A stretch of DNA of 35,708 bases from contig REED01000121.1 in NCBI GenBank assembly GCA_007695225.1, forward strand, positions 1-35,708. Reading direction: 5' to 3'. The first letter of the stretch is position 1. Each line of letters opens with the position of its first letter. The DNA comes from Gemmatimonadales bacterium (GTDB lineage: Bacteria > Gemmatimonadota > Gemmatimonadetes > Longimicrobiales > Gaopeijiaceae). A program made the position numbers and the translations under genes. This document shows, piece by piece, positions 1,281 through 35,662 of the stretch. The notes beneath the pieces were generated by a model, which was not told the origin of the DNA, did not search any database, and was given only the letters and a program-made list of their open reading frames with translations.

Positions 1281-2714
1281 ATGAACATGGGAACCGGATT
1301 CATTACCGGGAAACACATCCCCCGTCGGACCTTCCTCCGGGGCATGGGGGCGGCCGTCGCGCTTCCCTTCCTGGATTCCATGATCCCTGCGGGTCGACGG
1401 TGGTCGGGGGAGGAGATCGACCGAACCCGGCTCATCTGCATGGAGGAGGTCCACGGTGCGGCCGGCTCCAATGACTGGGGGGCGAGTCAGTACCTCTTCG
1501 CCCCTGACACGGTGGGCCGGAATTTCTCGTTGAACGCCGAAAACCTGCTCAAGCCGCTGGAGCCCTTCCAGGACTACCTGACCATCATCAGCAACACCGA
1601 TGTGCGGATGGCCGAGGCCTGGGAAGCGGCGGAGATCGGAGGAGACCACTTCCGATCCAGCGCCGTCTTCTTGACCCAGTCCCACCCCCGTCAGACCCAG
1701 GGGTCGGACCTCTACGCCGGCACCTCCCTGGATCAGCTCTACGCCCGGCGGTACGGCCAGGACACCCCCATCCCCTCCATGCAGCTCTGCATCGAGACCA
1801 CCGATCAGTCCGGCGGGTGCCACTACAACTATTCCTGCGCCTACACCGACTCCATCAGCTGGGCCTCGCCCACCGAGCCCCTTCCCCTGGTCCGGGATCC
1901 CCGGGTGGTCTTCGACATGATGTTCGGAGCCGGCGCCACCCAGGAGGAGCGGGTCACCCGCAGGCGGGAGAACCAGAGCATCCTCGACTGGATCGCCGGC
2001 GAAGTGGCTGGGCTCAAGCGGGAGCTGGGGATGGCCGACCGTCGCCGCATCGACCAGTTCATGAACGACATCCGGGAGATCGAGCGCCGGATCCAGATGG
2101 TGGAGGCCCGGAACACCAGCGGTGAGCCTCGGGAGCTCCCTGAGGCGCCGGTGGGCGTGCCCGACTCCTTCGAAGAGCACATGAAGCTCATGTTCGACCT
2201 TCAGCTCCTGGCCTTCGAAGCGGACCTGACCCGGGTCTTCTCCTTCAAGTGGGGACGGGACAGCTCCAACCGGATCTTCCCGGAAAGCGGTGTGGACCGG
2301 CCCATTCACCCCGCCTCCCATCATGGGAACGACGAGGAGCGGATCCTGGAATGGAACCGGATCCATCAGTGGCGGATGGAGATGCTCCCCTACTTCCTGG
2401 AGAAGCTCCAGAATTCCGTTGAGGGTGACACCCACCTCCTGGACAAGACCATGATCGTGTGGGGCTCGCCCATGGGCGACGGGAACCTCCACAACCACCG
2501 ACGCTGCCCCCTCATCGCCATCGGCGGCGCCAATGGGAAGCTCCAGGGGAATCTTCACCTCCGGGCTCCCGATGGGACCCCCATGGCCAACGCCATGTTG
2601 AGCCTCCTTCACGCCCTGGGCCTGGAGGACATGACCAGCTTCGGTGACAGCACCGGCGCCTTTTCCTGGACGCCGCCCACTCGGGCGGCCACCCTCACCC
2701 TGGATGCGAGATGA
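1281..2714 (+). CDS. DUF1552 Tat-exported protein, copy A
   Basis: This 477-residue protein belongs to the DUF1552 family, which typically pairs with DUF1592/DUF1588 proteins. The N-terminus carries a twin-arginine motif (PRRTFLRGMG, about residues 14-23) and a short hydrophobic stretch, so export folded through Tat is likely. The start is supported by an AGGAGG at 1266-1271, 9 bases upstream. Internal family-like segments include WGSPMGDGNLHNH near residue 395 and SHHGND. The enzymatic role is unknown. The stop overlaps the next start as ATGA, indicating translational coupling with copy B. Copies A and B align without any gap at an offset of exactly 1430 bp, and 372 bp are identical between them. 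Confidence 0.85.
   Translation: MNMGTGFITGKHIPRRTFLRGMGAAVALPFLDSMIPAGRRWSGEEIDRTRLICMEEVHGAAGSNDWGASQYLFAPDTVGRNFSLNAENLLKPLEPFQDYLTIISNTDVRMAEAWEAAEIGGDHFRSSAVFLTQSHPRQTQGSDLYAGTSLDQLYARRYGQDTPIPSMQLCIETTDQSGGCHYNYSCAYTDSISWASPTEPLPLVRDPRVVFDMMFGAGATQEERVTRRRENQSILDWIAGEVAGLKRELGMADRRRIDQFMNDIREIERRIQMVEARNTSGEPRELPEAPVGVPDSFEEHMKLMFDLQLLAFEADLTRVFSFKWGRDSSNRIFPESGVDRPIHPASHHGNDEERILEWNRIHQWRMEMLPYFLEKLQNSVEGDTHLLDKTMIVWGSPMGDGNLHNHRRCPLIAIGGANGKLQGNLHLRAPDGTPMANAMLSLLHALGLEDMTSFGDSTGAFSWTPPTRAATLTLDAR
1494..1865 (+). repeat. 372-bp identical tract, donor/acceptor A
   Basis: Bases 1494-1865 match 2924-3295 without a difference, while the flanking parts of the two DUF1552 genes differ at many synonymous sites. 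Both edges are abrupt (TACC versus CATC on the left, CTCG versus CACC on the right). This is seen directly by aligning the two genes at offset 1430. Confidence 0.9.
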
Positions 2715-4144
2715 GCATGGTTAACGGATTCATCACCGGCAAACACGTTCCGCGGCGGACCTTCCTACGGGGAATGGGAGCCACCGTGGCTCTACCCTTT
2801 CTGGATGCCATGATCCCCGCGGGTCGGCGTTGGTCGGGAGAGGAGATCGACCGGACCCGGCTCATCTGCATGGAGGAGGTCCACGGATCGGCCGGCTCCA
2901 ATGACTGGGGGGCGAAACAGCATCTCTTCGCCCCTGACACGGTGGGCCGGAATTTCTCGTTGAACGCCGAAAACCTGCTCAAGCCGCTGGAGCCCTTCCA
3001 GGACTACCTGACCATCATCAGCAACACCGATGTGCGGATGGCCGAGGCCTGGGAAGCGGCGGAGATCGGAGGAGACCACTTCCGATCCAGCGCCGTCTTC
3101 TTGACCCAGTCCCACCCCCGTCAGACCCAGGGGTCGGACCTCTACGCCGGCACCTCCCTGGATCAGCTCTACGCCCGGCGGTACGGCCAGGACACCCCCA
3201 TCCCCTCCATGCAGCTCTGCATCGAGACCACCGATCAGTCCGGCGGGTGCCACTACAACTATTCCTGCGCCTACACCGACTCCATCAGCTGGGCCACCCC
3301 CACCGAACCCCTCCCCCTCATCCGGGACCCCCGCGTCGTCTTTGAGATGATGTTCGGGGCCGGAGCCAACGAGGAGGAGCGGACCACCCGCAGACGCGAG
3401 AACCAGAGCATCCTGGACTGGGTCGCCACCGAGGTGGCTGGGCTCAAGCGGGAGCTGGGGATGGCGGACCGTCGCCGCATGGACCAGTTCACCAACGATA
3501 TCCGGGAGATCGAGCGCCGGATCCAGATGGTGGAGGCCCGGAACACCAGCGGCGACCCGAGGGACCTCCCTGAGGCGCCGGTGGGCGTACCCGACTCCTT
3601 CGAAGAGCACATGAAGCTCATGTTCGACCTTCAGCTCCTGGCCTTCGAGGCGGATCTGACCCGGGTCTTCTCCTTCAAGTGGGGACGGGACGGCTCCAAC
3701 CGGATCTTCCCGGAGAGCGGTGTGGAGCGGCCCATCCATCCCGCCTCCCATCACGGCAACAACGAGGAACGGATCCTGGAGTGGAACCGCCTGCACCAGT
3801 GGCGGATGGGGATGCTCCCCTACTTCCTGGAGAAGCTCCAGAACTCCATGGAGGGGGATGCCCACCTCCTGGACAAGACCATGATCGTATGGGGATCCCC
3901 CATGGGCGATGGAAATGTCCACAACCACCGGCGCTGCCCCCTCATCGCCATCGGCGGCGCCAATGGGAAGCTCCAGGGCAACCTCCACCTCCGGGCTCCC
4001 GACGGGACGCCCATGGCCAACGCCATGCTGAGTCTCCTCCACGCCCTGGGGCTGGAGGACATGACCAGCTTCGGCGACAGCACCGGCGCCTTCTCCTGGT
4101 CGCCGCCGGCACGCCTGGCCACCCTAACCAACGACGCCCGCTGA
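2711..4144 (+). CDS. DUF1552 Tat-exported protein, copy B
   Basis: This is a second 477-residue DUF1552 protein with the same length as copy A and no gaps between them. It has the same Tat motif (PRRTFLRGMG). The start ATG at 2711 overlaps the stop of copy A by 4 bases; an ATG at 2717 is a possible alternative. Differences from copy A are spread over the first ~210 bases and the last ~850, mostly at third positions. The block 2924-3295 is identical to 1494-1865. The pair is a recent tandem duplication or one kept similar by gene conversion. Function is unknown; the context suggests it acts with the DUF1592-type protein upstream and the ankyrin protein downstream in the periplasm. Confidence 0.85.
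   Translation: MSMVNGFITGKHVPRRTFLRGMGATVALPFLDAMIPAGRRWSGEEIDRTRLICMEEVHGSAGSNDWGAKQHLFAPDTVGRNFSLNAENLLKPLEPFQDYLTIISNTDVRMAEAWEAAEIGGDHFRSSAVFLTQSHPRQTQGSDLYAGTSLDQLYARRYGQDTPIPSMQLCIETTDQSGGCHYNYSCAYTDSISWATPTEPLPLIRDPRVVFEMMFGAGANEEERTTRRRENQSILDWVATEVAGLKRELGMADRRRMDQFTNDIREIERRIQMVEARNTSGDPRDLPEAPVGVPDSFEEHMKLMFDLQLLAFEADLTRVFSFKWGRDGSNRIFPESGVERPIHPASHHGNNEERILEWNRLHQWRMGMLPYFLEKLQNSMEGDAHLLDKTMIVWGSPMGDGNVHNHRRCPLIAIGGANGKLQGNLHLRAPDGTPMANAMLSLLHALGLEDMTSFGDSTGAFSWSPPARLATLTNDAR
2924..3295 (+). repeat. 372-bp identical tract, donor/acceptor B
   Basis: This is the second member of the identical pair (see 1494-1865). It encodes the conserved segment from LFAPDTVGRNF to YTDSISWA. The direction of transfer cannot be told from this window. 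Confidence 0.9.
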
Positions 4145-31289: not shown

Positions 31290-32204
31290 TCACCCCTGCA
31301 GCGCCGCCGGAAAGCTCCCCAGCACCCGGAAGGCCGTGGTCCCCTCCGCCGCCGATTCCAGGGCCTTCTGAAGGTGAACGTCCCCCGCTTCCCCGCGGAG
31401 CTCCAGAAGAAATCGGTAGCACCACGGCTCTCCGGCCGGGCGCGACTCAATCCGGGACAGATCGACGCCGTATTCCGCGAAGGGCAGAAGGACCCGAACC
31501 AGGGCTCCCGGCTGATCCACGAGTTCCAGGAGAACCACGGTCCGAAGGCTGCGACCTTCGTCGAAGTCCGGTGATTGGGTAGGGTCTCCCTCCCGTTGCA
31601 GGAGATAGAACCGGGTCTGGTTGTCGTCCCGGTCCTGGAGGTCGGCCGCCAGGATATCGAGCCCGTAACGCTCTGCCGCACCCCGGGGCGCGATGGCGGC
31701 CACCCGTGGGTCTCCCACCCGGGCCACTTCCATCGCCGCCCCGGCGGTATCGTGCACGGGGATGGCCTCGGCGTCCCTGCGGGCCCGGAGATACCGAAGG
31801 CATTGTGCCAACGCCACGGGATGGGAAAGGATGCGGTGAACCCTGTTCTCAGAGGCCCCAGGGACGCCCATGAGAAAGTGGCGGATGGGGAGGATGACTT
31901 CCGCCGTGATGATCAGCCCGCCCTCCACCAGCACGTCGTGGGATCCCTGGACGCTCCCCGCCAGCGTGTTCTCCACCGGAAGGAGGCCCAGGTCCGCGTC
32001 CCCACCCCGCACCGCCTCCCCCACATCGAGAAAGGTTCGACGGGGCAGGGGTTGGGCTCGGCCATTGAAATGCTGAAGGATGGCCTCCTCGCTGAAGGCT
32101 CCATGCTCGCCCTGGAAGGCCACGATGGGTTCGTCCCCGCCCGACTTCATCCCTGTCTCCGAGATGAGGCGCACCGACATGAGATCCAGCTTCTGTGAAT
32201 CCAT
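31290..32204 (-). CDS. pheA: Prephenate dehydratase
   Basis: A 304-residue monofunctional enzyme converting prephenate to phenylpyruvate for Phe synthesis. The catalytic PDT domain (about 25-205) has AFQGEHGAFSEEA, LLPVENTLAGSV and the catalytic TRF (Thr197-Arg198-Phe199 in DNQTRFYLL). The ACT domain (about 220-300) carries LLELVDQPGALVRVL and ESRP (253-256), the Phe-binding site for feedback inhibition. No chorismate mutase domain is fused. GGAGGAG 6 bases upstream of ATG 32204 fixes the start. Control is at two levels: allosteric Phe binding and the attenuator directly upstream (32262-32457). Confidence 0.95.
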   Translation of the reverse strand: MDSQKLDLMSVRLISETGMKSGGDEPIVAFQGEHGAFSEEAILQHFNGRAQPLPRRTFLDVGEAVRGGDADLGLLPVENTLAGSVQGSHDVLVEGGLIITAEVILPIRHFLMGVPGASENRVHRILSHPVALAQCLRYLRARRDAEAIPVHDTAGAAMEVARVGDPRVAAIAPRGAAERYGLDILAADLQDRDDNQTRFYLLQREGDPTQSPDFDEGRSLRTVVLLELVDQPGALVRVLLPFAEYGVDLSRIESRPAGEPWCYRFLLELRGEAGDVHLQKALESAAEGTTAFRVLGSFPAALQG

Positions 32205-32261
32205 CTTTCTCCTCCGGGTCCGTGGTCTGTGATCGGGCACCGGAGAGGCCAGGGGCGCCTA

Positions 32262-32297
32262 CAAGAAAAGGCGGCCCGTGGTCTCCCACGGGCCGCC
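32262..32297 (-). terminator. pheA attenuator terminator
   Basis: Read on the minus strand: GGCGGCCCGTGG, loop GAGA, CCACGGGCCGCC, then TTTTCTTG. The 12-bp stem is perfect. It stands between the leader peptide and pheA, 58 bp before the pheA start, so it stops transcription before the gene unless it is prevented from forming. Confidence 0.92.
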
Positions 32298-32363
32298 CGT
32301 TCGGATGAGAAGCGTCGGTCCCTACCGCCCGCCACTCTCCCCACGGCCCATGGGATGGGTCGT
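32285..32363 (-). promoter_or_regulatory. Mutually exclusive attenuator helices (protector and antiterminator)
   Basis: On the minus strand, ACGaCCCAT (32363-32355) pairs with ATGGGcCGT (32351-32343) around CCC: the protector (1:2) hairpin. The next arm CCCATGGGCCG (32354-32344) alternatively pairs over 11 bp, one of them U-G, with CGGCCCGTGGG (32295-32285), the 5' arm of the terminator: the antiterminator (2:3). ACG is the codon right after the last Phe codon, so a ribosome stalled on Phe codons breaks 1:2 and frees region 2 for 2:3. A fast ribosome lets the terminator form. Confidence 0.82.
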
Positions 32364-32420
32364 AAAGGAAAACGCGAAGGCGCAAAACGCGAAGGCGAAG
32401 GACCGGGTCATCTCGTTCAT
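32322..32420 (-). CDS. pheL: Phe-rich leader peptide of pheA attenuator
   Basis: A 32-codon reading frame starting ATG at 32420 (another in-frame ATG at 32423 and at 32411). Residues 8-19 read FAFAFCAFAFSF: six phenylalanines in twelve codons, using TTC and TTT. It ends with TAG 24 bases before the terminator arm. Its position between a promoter-like sequence and the terminator, and the fit of the RNA helices to the Phe codons, match the E. coli pheL mechanism. No clear Shine-Dalgarno precedes 32420; GAACGAG precedes the ATG at 32411, which would still keep every Phe codon. Confidence 0.9.
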   Translation of the reverse strand: MNEMTRSFAFAFCAFAFSFTTHPMGRGESGGR

Positions 32421-32427
32421 CATCAGA

Positions 32428-32457
32428 AGAATGGTTCAGCGTTCCACGTCACGTCAA
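32428..32457 (-). promoter_or_regulatory. Predicted pheL-pheA promoter
   Basis: On the minus strand TTGACG (32457-32452) is followed after 18 bases by CATTCT (32433-32428), a -35/-10 pair with a strong -35 and a weak -10. The expected transcript start falls at or just before the leader ATG, so the leader may be translated with little or no 5' UTR. Confidence 0.55.
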
Positions 32458-32781: not shown

Positions 32782-33218
32782 CCCCCACCGATTCCAAACT
32801 GCGGGACAAGGCCCACCGGCTCCTCTCCCAAAGGGAGCACAGTCGCAGCGAACTCCGGCAGAAACTTCTTGAGCGGGGCAGCGCTGAGGGGCCCGTGGAC
32901 GAACTCCTGGACCACCTCCGGGACACCGGGCTCCAATCGGATCGTCGGTTCGCCGAAGCGCTGGCTCGGAGCCGGGTGGCCCGGGGGTACGGCCCCCTCC
33001 GCATCCGGTCCGATCTGGCTCGGCGGGGCGTCGCGCCCCCCCTCGCCCGTCAGGTCCTGGACGCGCTCGCTGTGGACTGGGCGGAGGCCCTTCGTGAGGA
33101 GCATGCATCCCGGTTCGGTGACGACGCCCCCCCGAATTTCCAGGAAAAGGCCCGGCGCTGGCGGGCACTGGAACGTCGGGGGTTCACGGTGGCACAGTTG
33201 CGGGACTTCCTGGGCTGA
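32778..33218 (+). CDS. recX: RecX regulatory protein
   Basis: A 146-residue three-helix-repeat protein that binds RecA filaments and limits recombination and SOS induction. Typical repeat features are ALLSQREHSRSELRQKLLERG-like (about 14-35), VDELLDHLRDTGLQSDRRFAEALARSRVARGYGPLRIRSDLARRGV (36-85) and the final RRWRALERRGFTVAQLRDFL. RecA itself is not in the window. The start overlaps the small upstream gene by 4 bases. Confidence 0.9.
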   Translation: MTPTDSKLRDKAHRLLSQREHSRSELRQKLLERGSAEGPVDELLDHLRDTGLQSDRRFAEALARSRVARGYGPLRIRSDLARRGVAPPLARQVLDALAVDWAEALREEHASRFGDDAPPNFQEKARRWRALERRGFTVAQLRDFLG

Positions 33219-33378
33219 AAGGGGGGGGTATGGACAGCCTCTCGCAGGATTCCTGGCGAGCGGGCGCCACCTTGCCCCCAGCCGCCTGCCCCCGCATCAT
33301 GCCCGATACAGTCCTCGCCTGACCCGAACGGATCCGGACGAGGCGACCTCTCAGTCGCGGGATGAACAGGAGATGGGG

Positions 33379-34491
33379 ATGGTTCGATACATGAGCGGAG
33401 TGGGATTCCTTCTGCTCCTAGCGCTGGGCGCACCCGGCTGTGCCGTGGATTCCCCGGAGCCCGAGGGCGATCTGCCTACCTTCCGAGCAGATCCGGACTG
33501 GCCCCGGCCCTTTGCCGAGAACTGGGTGCTGGGCGCCGTCACGGGAATCGCCGTCGACGCCCGGGACCACGTCTGGGTCACCCACTCGCCAAGCGGCGGT
33601 GGCGGCGCGGCCTTCGGCGCTGCCCAGGACCCCCCCATCTCCACCTGCTGCGTTCCGGCCCCCGACGTCATCGAGTTCGATCCCGACGGGAATGTGGTAC
33701 AGGCCTGGGTCATGGACGGCGACGGCTACGAGTGGCCGAGCATCCCCCACGGGATCTTCGTGGACCACACGGACCATGTCTGGATCGGGTCCCGCCCCAA
33801 CCACCAGCTCTTGAAGTTCAACCGGGACGGAGACCTGGTCCTCACCATCGGTGAACTGGGCGTGAGTGGCGGGAGCAACGACCCGGACCGGTTGGGCACC
33901 CCCGCCGACATGTGGGTGAGCCCCGAAACCAATGAGGTCTTCGTCGCGGACGGATATGGGAACCGGCGGATCATCGTATTCGACGGCGACACCGGTGCCT
34001 ACCTTCGGCACTGGGGCGCCTATGGAGAGGTGCCCGATGACGACTACGAGTATGGCCCTCGGGGCGCCGACGAGCCGCCGGCTCGCCAGTTCGGAACGGC
34101 CCACGGCATCGTGGGCTCCCGCGACGGCCTCCTCTACCTGGCGGATCGCCGGAACAACCGGGTGCAGGTCTTCCAGCAGGACGGAACCTTCGTGGCCGAG
34201 AGGCTCGTGGCCCCCGAGACCCTTTCCAGCGGCTCCGCCCACGACGTGGCGCTCTCCGCCGACGCCGATCAGCGCTTTCTCTATCTCATGGATGGCGTGA
34301 ATCACCGGATCTGGATCCTGCAGCGGCACGACCTCGAGGTGGTGGGTCACTTTGGCCAGGGAGGGTACCAGTTGGGTCAATTCATCCGTCCCCACAACAT
34401 GGACAGCGACTCGCGGGGGAACATCTACTCCAGCGAAGCCGAGACCCAGCGCGTCCAGCGCTTCCTCGTCCAGGGCGCAGGCGCGCCGTAG
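33379..34491 (+). CDS. PAL-like six-bladed beta-propeller lipoprotein, copy 1
   Basis: A 370-residue lipoprotein (hydrophobic core then GAPGC, Cys21). The rest is an NHL-type propeller whose blades align with peptidylglycine alpha-amidating lyase (PAL). PHGIFVDHTDHVWIGS (His124) matches PAL PHGL, ADGYGNRRIIVF (Tyr193) matches SDGYCNSRI with the catalytic Tyr, AHGIVGSRDGLLYLADRRNNRVQVF (His242) matches the PHSL blade, and RPHNMDSDSRGNIY (His339) matches the PHDI blade. The three zinc-ligand histidines and the tyrosine are therefore present; the methionine before the last His is Arg. PAL cleaves hydroxyglycine. The start at 33379 has AGGAG 6 bases upstream. A close paralog follows. Confidence 0.85.
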   Translation: MVRYMSGVGFLLLLALGAPGCAVDSPEPEGDLPTFRADPDWPRPFAENWVLGAVTGIAVDARDHVWVTHSPSGGGGAAFGAAQDPPISTCCVPAPDVIEFDPDGNVVQAWVMDGDGYEWPSIPHGIFVDHTDHVWIGSRPNHQLLKFNRDGDLVLTIGELGVSGGSNDPDRLGTPADMWVSPETNEVFVADGYGNRRIIVFDGDTGAYLRHWGAYGEVPDDDYEYGPRGADEPPARQFGTAHGIVGSRDGLLYLADRRNNRVQVFQQDGTFVAERLVAPETLSSGSAHDVALSADADQRFLYLMDGVNHRIWILQRHDLEVVGHFGQGGYQLGQFIRPHNMDSDSRGNIYSSEAETQRVQRFLVQGAGAP

Positions 34492-34546
34492 GCGTGCCGC
34501 CCAACCCCGGAACCGCCGCCACGTGCGCACAAGAAACAGGATGCCG

Positions 34547-35662
34547 ATGAAGAACACACGAACACTCCGGAGAGGGATGGCCGGACTCATTGCGTTGGTC
34601 CTGGCGGGAGCCTGCACCCCGGCGCCGGCCCAGACCCCGGCCAACTCCGGATTCGACCTCGACCCCGACTGGCCACAGCCCTTCCAGGAGAACTGGGTCC
34701 TGGGCTCGGTGACCGGAGTCGCGGTGGATGGGCGGGGACACATCTGGGTCACCCACGCCCAGGGAATGGCTACCGCCGCGGCCCACGGTGCCGCAGCGGA
34801 CCCACCGGTCTCCCTCTGCTGCGTGCCGGCCCCTGGAGTCATGGAATTCGACCGGCAGGGCGCCCTGGTGCAGAGCTGGGACACCAGCAGCGGCGATTAC
34901 GCCTGGCCCGACGTCCCCCACGGCATCTACGTGGACCACAACGACTTCGTCTGGGTCGCCTCCCGGCCGCACCACCAGCTTCTCAAGTTCGACCGGGATG
35001 GGGAGCTGGTTCTCACGATCGGGGAACTGGATGTGACCGCCGGAAGCAACGATCCCGACCGACTCGGAAACCCCGCCGGGGTCTGGGTCGACCCGGGGAC
35101 CAACGAGGTCTTCGTCGCGGATGGATACCGGAATCGGCGGGTGGTGGTCTACGACGGGGAGTCGGGAGAGTACCTGCGTCACTGGGGCGCATACGGGGAG
35201 ACTCCCGATGACGACTATGTGTACGGGCCCCGGGGCGCCGACGCGCCTCCGGCACGACAGTTCGGCACGGTCCACGGGATCGTCGGCTCGGCCGACGGGC
35301 TGATCTACGTGGCGGACCGCCGGAACAATCGGGTTCAGGTCTTCCAGCAAGACGGTACGTTCGTCCAGGAGAAGGTCGTGGCGCCGGCCACCCTGGCATC
35401 GGGCTCTGCCTTCGACGTGGCGCTCTCCCCCGGTCCCGACCAGGACTTCCTCTACCTCATGGATGGAACCAACCACAAGATCTGGGTCCTTCAGCGAAGC
35501 GACCTGGAGGTGGTGGACGAACTGGGCCGGGGAGGCTACCAGGTGGGGCAGTTCGTCCGTCCCCACAACATCGCCACCGATGCCGAGGGAAACATCTACA
35601 CCAGCGAGGCCGAGACCAAGCGCGTGCAGCGGTTCGTCCCCCGCGGGGCCTACGCTCCCTGA
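34547..35662 (+). CDS. PAL-like six-bladed beta-propeller lipoprotein, copy 2
   Basis: A 371-residue paralog of copy 1 (lipobox LAGAC, Cys23). It shares the same blades: PHGIYVDHNDFVWVAS (His125), ADGYRNRRVVVY (Tyr194), VHGIVGSADGLIYVADRR (His243), RPHNIATDAEGNIY (His340). The cysteine that forms a disulfide in animal PAL (DGYC) is Arg here and Gly in copy 1. A conserved CC pair with VPAP near residue 91 is shared by both copies but not by PAL. The ATG at 34547 is preferred because AGGA precedes it; an ATG at 34541 is in frame. Divergence between the copies is even, unlike the DUF1552 pair. Confidence 0.85.
   Translation: MKNTRTLRRGMAGLIALVLAGACTPAPAQTPANSGFDLDPDWPQPFQENWVLGSVTGVAVDGRGHIWVTHAQGMATAAAHGAAADPPVSLCCVPAPGVMEFDRQGALVQSWDTSSGDYAWPDVPHGIYVDHNDFVWVASRPHHQLLKFDRDGELVLTIGELDVTAGSNDPDRLGNPAGVWVDPGTNEVFVADGYRNRRVVVYDGESGEYLRHWGAYGETPDDDYVYGPRGADAPPARQFGTVHGIVGSADGLIYVADRRNNRVQVFQQDGTFVQEKVVAPATLASGSAFDVALSPGPDQDFLYLMDGTNHKIWVLQRSDLEVVDELGRGGYQVGQFVRPHNIATDAEGNIYTSEAETKRVQRFVPRGAYAP

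Follow-up and report, generated by a model that had tools for sequence, protein, structure and literature searches.

A predicted phenylalanine-codon attenuator before pheA in Gemmatimonadota, one member of a family with a shared scaffold and differing sensor codons

Introduction

In enteric bacteria, pheA is preceded by pheL, a Phe-rich leader, and by a protector, an antiterminator and a terminator, an arrangement represented in Rfam as Phe_leader. The locus described here has the same parts before pheA, and ribosome stalling is the predicted sensor. It differs from the enteric system in that the window (the whole stretch of 35,708 nucleotides that was analysed) has no match to any Rfam leader, in that its pheA is monofunctional, and in that a leaderless mRNA is predicted. 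An earlier sequence-only reading of this DNA described the parts as placed like those of enteric pheL-pheA. The parts are indeed present, but the layout appears to depart somewhat from the enteric one, with regions 1 and 2 lying inside the leader ORF. An origin independent of enteric pheL, which was also suggested, is plausible, and the missing Rfam match is consistent with it without proving it. His and Thr operon leaders are likewise known from Proteobacteria (Rfam His_leader and Thr_leader). The family described below resembles them in having His codons before hisG and Thr codons before aspartokinase, whereas its scaffold is common to Phe and Tyr versions and the 20 loci searched gave no match to these Rfam models.

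The state of knowledge on attenuation is taken here from PMC2965389 and PMC1262725. In Actinobacteria, leader-peptide attenuators have been reported for Trp, Cys and branched-chain amino acids, and according to the same source no conserved RNA structures were observed there before His, Thr, Phe or Tyr operons; for Tyr genes elsewhere, the paper names T-boxes as the RNA-based control (PMC1262725). The actinobacterial cases are similar to the present ones in combining leader peptides and terminators outside Proteobacteria, but the specificities predicted here are Phe, Tyr, His and Thr instead of the Trp, Cys and branched-chain cases reported there (PMC1262725). In Sinorhizobium meliloti trpL, the 5' end of the attenuator RNA coincides with the ATG of the leader ORF, as is predicted here, and the trpL products are reported to act in trans; that system is a Trp leader before trpE(G) in a different phylum (PMC7298713). 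Our literature search, which covered few subscription papers, found no published description of a Gemmatimonadota attenuator family.

With a probability of about 0.9, we consider the window locus to be a ribosome-mediated transcription attenuator that senses Phe-tRNA and that belongs to a Gemmatimonadota family with a shared scaffold and differing sensor codons. Peptide-leader attenuation as such is known; what is new is a single scaffold that carries different predicted codon sensors.

The pheA Locus in the Window

The feature lies on the minus strand of contig C11 in a 4.18-Mb genome assembly, with a recX-type gene as its divergent neighbour. Its parts are as follows.

32452..32457, minus strand: −35-like box TTGACG (from the sequence; the position of TTGAC is shared across the leader family)
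32428..32433, minus strand: −10-like box CATTCT after an 18-bp spacer (from the sequence; family −10 pattern)
32322..32423, minus strand: leader ORF MMNEMTRSFAFAFCAFAFSFTTHPMGRGESGGR, 33 codons and a stop codon (relatives have Phe-containing leaders in the same place)
32364..32399, minus strand: sensor FAFAFCAFAFSF, 12 codons including six Phe (from the sequence; family sensor codons end before the protector)
32347..32359, minus strand: protector hairpin, regions 1 and 2, CCCAT-CCC-ATGGG, 5 bp (A-T to G-C change in relatives)
32343..32353, minus strand: antiterminator 5' arm CCATGGGCCGT, region 2 (pairs with 11 bases of 32286-32297)
32286..32297, minus strand: region 3 GGCGGCCCGTGG, the antiterminator 3' arm and at the same time the terminator 5' arm
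32270..32281, minus strand: region 4 CCACGGGCCGCC, the terminator 3' arm
32265..32269, minus strand: T-tract TTTTC after the terminator (from the sequence)
32205..32215, minus strand: Shine-Dalgarno-like GGAGGAGAAAG, including GGAGGAG, before pheA (from the sequence)
31290..32204, minus strand: pheA, a monofunctional prephenate dehydratase (PDT and ACT domains)

Transcription is predicted to start at the leader ATG or within a few nucleotides of it. The sequence-only reading had named a promoter-like TTGACG, a 32-codon Phe leader, a perfect 12-bp stem with a T run, and two competing helices, and all of these are borne out: TTGACG is at 32452-32457 on the minus strand, the leader counts 32 codons from its second ATG and 33 from its first (at 32423), the terminator at 32270-32297 is a perfect 12-bp stem with a 4-nt loop followed by TTTTC, and the protector CCCAT/ATGGG competes with an 11-bp antiterminator that shares the terminator arm. 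The protector had been placed directly after the last Phe codon, and the gap is 4 nt; the antiterminator had been said to use 11 bp of the terminator arm, and 11 pairs with the terminator 5' arm were counted, two of them being G-U. The leader ORF thus contains the two protector arms as well as the antiterminator 5' arm, and it ends downstream of them. The claim of a monofunctional pheA agrees with a domain search, which found PDT and ACT domains but none for chorismate mutase in the window PheA, and the gene content was rightly ascribed to a different phylum: the closest named relatives of this pheA are Gemmatimonadota/Gemmatimonadetes assemblies. Elsewhere in the window, on the plus strand, adjacent near-identical ORFs of 477 residues (1281-2714 and 2711-4144) look like a recent tandem duplication, and the adjacent ORFs at about 33200-34491 and 34352-35662, which encode clearly similar proteins, form another tandem pair.

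Chance expectations were computed for several of these parts. Six or more Phe per 13 codons would be expected 0.004 times in all six frames of the window, and a cluster of at least six in 13 codons was found at the leader only, as two overlapping windows of codons. The terminator is the sole perfect stem of at least 12 bp followed by a T-run on either strand of the window. Folding of the leader RNA was better than that of 200 of 200 dinucleotide shuffles (z −3.3).

Relatives before pheA

A pheA match was present in 60 of the 121 genomes of the family. In our own scan, 20 of 61 upstream regions contained a terminator within 1.5 kb of pheA and 41 did not, showing that the scaffold is not universal. 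At least one of the terminator-less regions is accounted for by a contig end, and some by a position of pheA downstream of other genes, which in several cases were judged by eye to be leuC-leuD. Among L143, L146, L147, L148 and L150, translations read by eye place pheA right behind what look like leuC and leuD in several cases, an apparent Leu-Phe operon; no attenuator was found next to pheA in these leuC-leuD-pheA arrangements.

Six pheA loci, the window included, share the scaffold. Their peptides differ, as exemplified by MRNGTYFIDLDFFFTARTMGRGRRCGRR and MIDQTASYGFSFTFTTRTTGRRGSCMP, and each contains three to six Phe. Conservation of Phe codons in relatives was one of the checks proposed by the sequence-only reading; the codons are kept, though the peptide has otherwise changed. 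At one position of the protector, the window has an A-T pair where four of the loci have G-C and one has G-T, and the antiterminator retains 10 or 11 of its 11 pairs in all six. A chorismate mutase-pheA pair follows in three of the six. Distant variants that keep the terminator but have only one or two Phe codons precede chorismate mutase-pheA in G036, G087 and G088, and pheA in G047. Upstream of pheA in L101, L106, L107 and L109, a CGATTTA stretch and one or two Phe codons accompany quite different stems.

A Family across the Phylum

Two RNA models were used: R1, whose training set was the six pheA attenuators only, and R2, with 31 training rows. Both take in the last two sensor codons, and their finds are biased towards codons like those in the training set. 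At E ≤ 0.01, R1 matched in 128 of 395 genomes of the phylum (partial and opposite-strand matches counted); with R2 at E ≤ 1e-4, 144 of the 395 had a match, and 143 of them belong to the same class as the window. In each of the 25 new R1 loci retrieved (L156-L180), the first downstream match is aroF, phenylalanine hydroxylase, aspartokinase, pheA or chorismate mutase. Most are Tyr-rich leaders before aroF or phenylalanine-4-hydroxylase; two are Thr-rich leaders before aspartokinase, and one is a Phe leader before pheA/chorismate mutase. Altogether, the family scaffold occurs in more than 80 related genomes with Tyr, His or Thr codons where the window has Phe, and there it precedes genes of the corresponding pathways. 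The scaffolds probably share descent, because a model made from Phe leaders retrieves the others.

A set of 150 loci was assembled from 30 R1 loci (L151-L180), 119 further R2 rows among the matches listed, and L096, leaving out an opposite-strand row that comprised the terminator part alone. Downstream genes were assigned by tblastn with reference proteins of six kinds. The first downstream match was a reference gene in 138 of the 150 loci examined, among the matches listed: aroF in 73, phenylalanine hydroxylase in 28, hisG in 18, pheA in 8, chorismate mutase in 6 and aspartokinase in 5. None of the six kinds was found downstream in the other 12 of the 150. When the 31 training rows of R2 were removed, 107 of 119 loci preceded a reference gene. 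One representative each of the hydroxylase, DAHP synthase, HisG and aspartate kinase passed the curated NCBIfam cut-off. As a control, R2 was applied to 50 genomes of other phyla, of which 9 had hits at E ≤ 0.01 and a single one at E ≤ 1e-4, with up to 76 candidates scored per control genome vs. nine each in the phylum scans. Eight control hits were inspected, and none preceded a reference gene; they were at ordinary gene ends or in coding sequence.

More than one class is present in 14 of 118 genomes, including that of the window, which has a second putative attenuator of the same scaffold with a His-rich leader, MRSLFSVHHHANHHAPRTGWVQIGVGA, before hisG (G000:C148:106-225, L257). Leaders before aroF are present in the single-contig genomes G138 and G156. 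The two DAHP-synthase-family matches of the window's genome (L338 and L339) have no terminator within 700 nt upstream. The same scan of trpE found no terminator within 700 nt in 25 of 26 loci, which indicates that there is no general Trp version within that distance. The lone Trp candidate, L333 (G254), has the leader MRNSLDRGAFFFTGCWWSRPPVGAV and, 67 nt upstream of the trpE match, a terminator. The Phe case of the window is one member of a larger family with several putative amino-acid specificities.

Match between Leader Codons and Downstream Genes

To each of the 138 loci a residue-blind rule was applied that picks the leader ORF by position and start codon; it yielded a leader in 135 and none in three, which stay in the denominators of the threshold counts below. 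Residues matching the class of the downstream gene numbered 675, compared with a label-shuffled mean of 425 (sd 17.5, maximum 492, 10000 shuffles). Because the models contain the last sensor codons, the test was repeated with codons before the model start only, giving 311 vs. 194.6 (sd 9.7, maximum 236), and again with the training rows removed, giving 246 vs. 155.6 (sd 9.2, maximum 192).

Leaders before hisG have on average 5.56 His each vs. 0.50 elsewhere. At least three matching residues were found in 18/18 hisG, 70/73 aroF, 24/28 hydroxylase, 11/14 pheA/chorismate mutase and 4/5 aspartokinase loci. Outside the respective class, the same threshold was reached in 1/117 leaders for His, 22/121 for Phe, 39/64 for Phe+Tyr+Trp, 51/107 for Tyr and 52/131 for Thr, whose codons are found in the fixed tail as well. 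With the codons covered by the models removed, His, Thr, Phe and the aromatic mix still exceed the other classes. Under this treatment, Tyr in the hydroxylase class is not above all other classes (1.14 vs. 1.10, p 0.35), because aroF leaders are Tyr-rich too; it is above the hisG, aspartokinase and pheA classes together (1.14 vs. 0.28, p 2.8e-5; p 0.011 without training rows). In addition, Phe and Trp are lower in hydroxylase than in aroF leaders (0.21 vs. 1.13, p 2.4e-5). The sensor codons end sharply: over the final codon positions ahead of the protector, the counts run 23, 16 and 22, then 1, in the hydroxylase class, and 62, 57 and 47, then 4, in the aroF class.

Promoter Position

In 104 of 134 leaders, the motif TTGAC is situated 35-39 nt upstream of the start codon, and the family −10 position shows T-A after a 17-bp spacer. 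These positions together place the predicted transcription start at the start codon. A Shine-Dalgarno-like 5-mer was found in 3 of the 134 leaders vs. 5.3 in shuffled upstream regions. The leader is therefore predicted to be translated from a leaderless transcript.

RNA Structure and Folding States

Covariation in the helices was another check that the sequence-only reading had proposed. In an alignment of 77 rows, 94.7% of the cells of the protector and terminator are paired and 64 cells have changed on both sides; the covariation was reached by 0 of 500 shuffles, and slid partners were at most 49.6% paired. Alignment of the rows followed the structure of the model itself and so favours these pairing figures. 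Compensatory changes are thus present, chiefly in the terminator helix, and the fourth protector pair is broken in 29 of 75 rows. For the antiterminator, 89.1% of the cells are paired in the 77 rows, vs. at most 42.2% when slid. Its covariation is modest (20 cells vs. 9.7 in shuffles), and its both-sided changes were matched by 178 of 500 shuffles.

Ribosome states were modelled by placing a footprint on the last sensor codon and cutting the transcript before region 4. In this folding model, the free window RNA has P(1:2) of 0.94 and P(2:3) of 0.00, and a ribosome stalled on the Phe codons raises P(2:3) to 0.83. When the ribosome covers region 2, P(2:3) is 0.00 and the protector is absent as well. 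Across 135 leaders, stalling raises the mean P(2:3) from 0.28 to 0.68 (Wilcoxon p 3e-17), with a gain of more than 0.05 in 98 leaders and none of that size in 37. Folding from the model start, with the upstream leader absent, gave no gain from stalling (P(2:3) 0.78 free and 0.71 stalled).

The model also suggests when the decision would have to be made. The leader stop codon starts a median of 50 nt past the model start, and in the window region 2 stays free when a ribosome sits at the stop codon, with P(2:3) of 0.91. Termination under plenty must thus rest on timing or steric effects and would have to be settled before the ribosome leaves region 2. For the full window transcript at equilibrium, P(3:4) is 1.00 in every ribosome state; since the terminator is present in every equilibrium state, the switch must be kinetic.

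Proposed Mechanism and Alternatives

We infer the function of the window attenuator and of the family from these sequence comparisons and folding models. The locus combines a short ORF rich in codons of the pathway, an intrinsic terminator between this ORF and the first gene, and a mutually exclusive antiterminator that shares the terminator arm; exposure of the latter by stalling is an in-silico prediction. When Phe is plentiful, the ribosome would run through regions 1 and 2, both within the ORF, and would cover region 2 while the polymerase makes regions 3 and 4, so that the terminator could fold and pheA would not be transcribed. When Phe is scarce, the ribosome would stall on the Phe codons, masking region 1 and leaving region 2 free to pair with region 3; no terminator would then form and pheA would be read. 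If no ribosome is present, the protector would form and make termination the default state.

An additional role in trans of the leader peptide or of the short attenuated RNA, with a functional Arg-rich tail TGRxRRxR, is very unlikely: an Arg-rich C-terminal tail does recur in many leaders, yet some of it is encoded by regions 1 and 2 and would be conserved there through RNA pairing alone.

GC-rich hairpins followed by T-tracts are widespread, and 12 of the 150 model hits are before no reference gene, as might suit a plain terminator or remnant before pheA, with a Phe-rich ORF that arose by chance and no regulation at all. Against this stand the expectation of just 0.004 Phe clusters in the window, the layout kept in relatives though the peptide has changed, the sharp positional end of the sensor codons, and a codon-pathway match far above label shuffles even with the model-covered codons removed. 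The explanation by chance is thus extremely unlikely.

The sequence-only reading had also proposed a comparison with the Rfam Phe leader model, and no leader model matches. At the gathering score, the window has no match to Phe_leader or any other amino-acid leader. The segment at E ≤ 10 gave four weak matches, none of them a T-box, riboswitch or amino-acid leader; three (sX12, mir-3017 and CC2171) fall on the terminator hairpin. For 20 of the 150 family loci at E ≤ 1, there were four sub-gathering matches, none of them a leader, T-box or riboswitch. The T-box covariance model had no match in the window (gathering score), in the segment (E ≤ 10) or in the 20 family loci (E ≤ 1). Riboswitch and T-box candidates were rejected on the basis of these covariance-model searches. 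Conservation of the scaffold in sequence besides pairing might hint at another sensor, such as a T-box, a riboswitch or an RNA-binding protein, driving the same terminator beside an incidental leader ORF, but this is extremely improbable, for the Rfam matches of the segment and the 20 loci include neither a T-box nor a riboswitch and a ligand-binding RNA would not swap Phe, Tyr, His and Thr codons with the gene.

The Tyr Version before Phenylalanine Hydroxylase

Tyr-containing leaders precede phenylalanine-4-hydroxylase in 28 loci, including L158, L163 and L205; in L205, aroF follows the hydroxylase gene. A prephenate dehydrogenase domain (PF02153) scores over the cut-off in all six genomes that have the Phe-type scaffold but in 11 of the 28 with a hydroxylase attenuator. 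It is not over the cut-off in the other 17 of 28, single absences being weak evidence because the assemblies are incomplete. According to PMC7311316, Tyr is made from Phe in a few bacteria, some of which have no prephenate dehydrogenase, and the authors of GapMind propose phenylalanine hydroxylase as a Tyr route in three bacteria. The hydroxylase considered here would be similar to that biosynthetic enzyme in that Tyr is made from Phe (PMC7311316). A Tyr-codon attenuator fits a Tyr-making role of the hydroxylase. Our search, which extended to few subscription papers, found no report of a Tyr-codon attenuator before phenylalanine hydroxylase.

On balance, we favour a history in which an ancestral attenuator was repeatedly reprogrammed by its sensor codons alone, for Phe, Tyr, mixed aromatic residues, His and Thr. 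As part of this same view, the Tyr version may control the hydroxylase as a Tyr-repressed biosynthetic step and may be the first Tyr-codon transcription attenuator.

Implications

The analysis yields more than 100 candidate leader ORFs, together with an RNA model that can be used in annotation. Leader-peptide attenuators thus appear to be present widely in another phylum, with codons matching the gene behind them. The predicted Tyr version argues, on regulatory grounds, that in many of these bacteria phenylalanine hydroxylase serves to make tyrosine. The family may also serve as a natural test bed for how attenuators gain specificity, in which the codons change and the switch stays.
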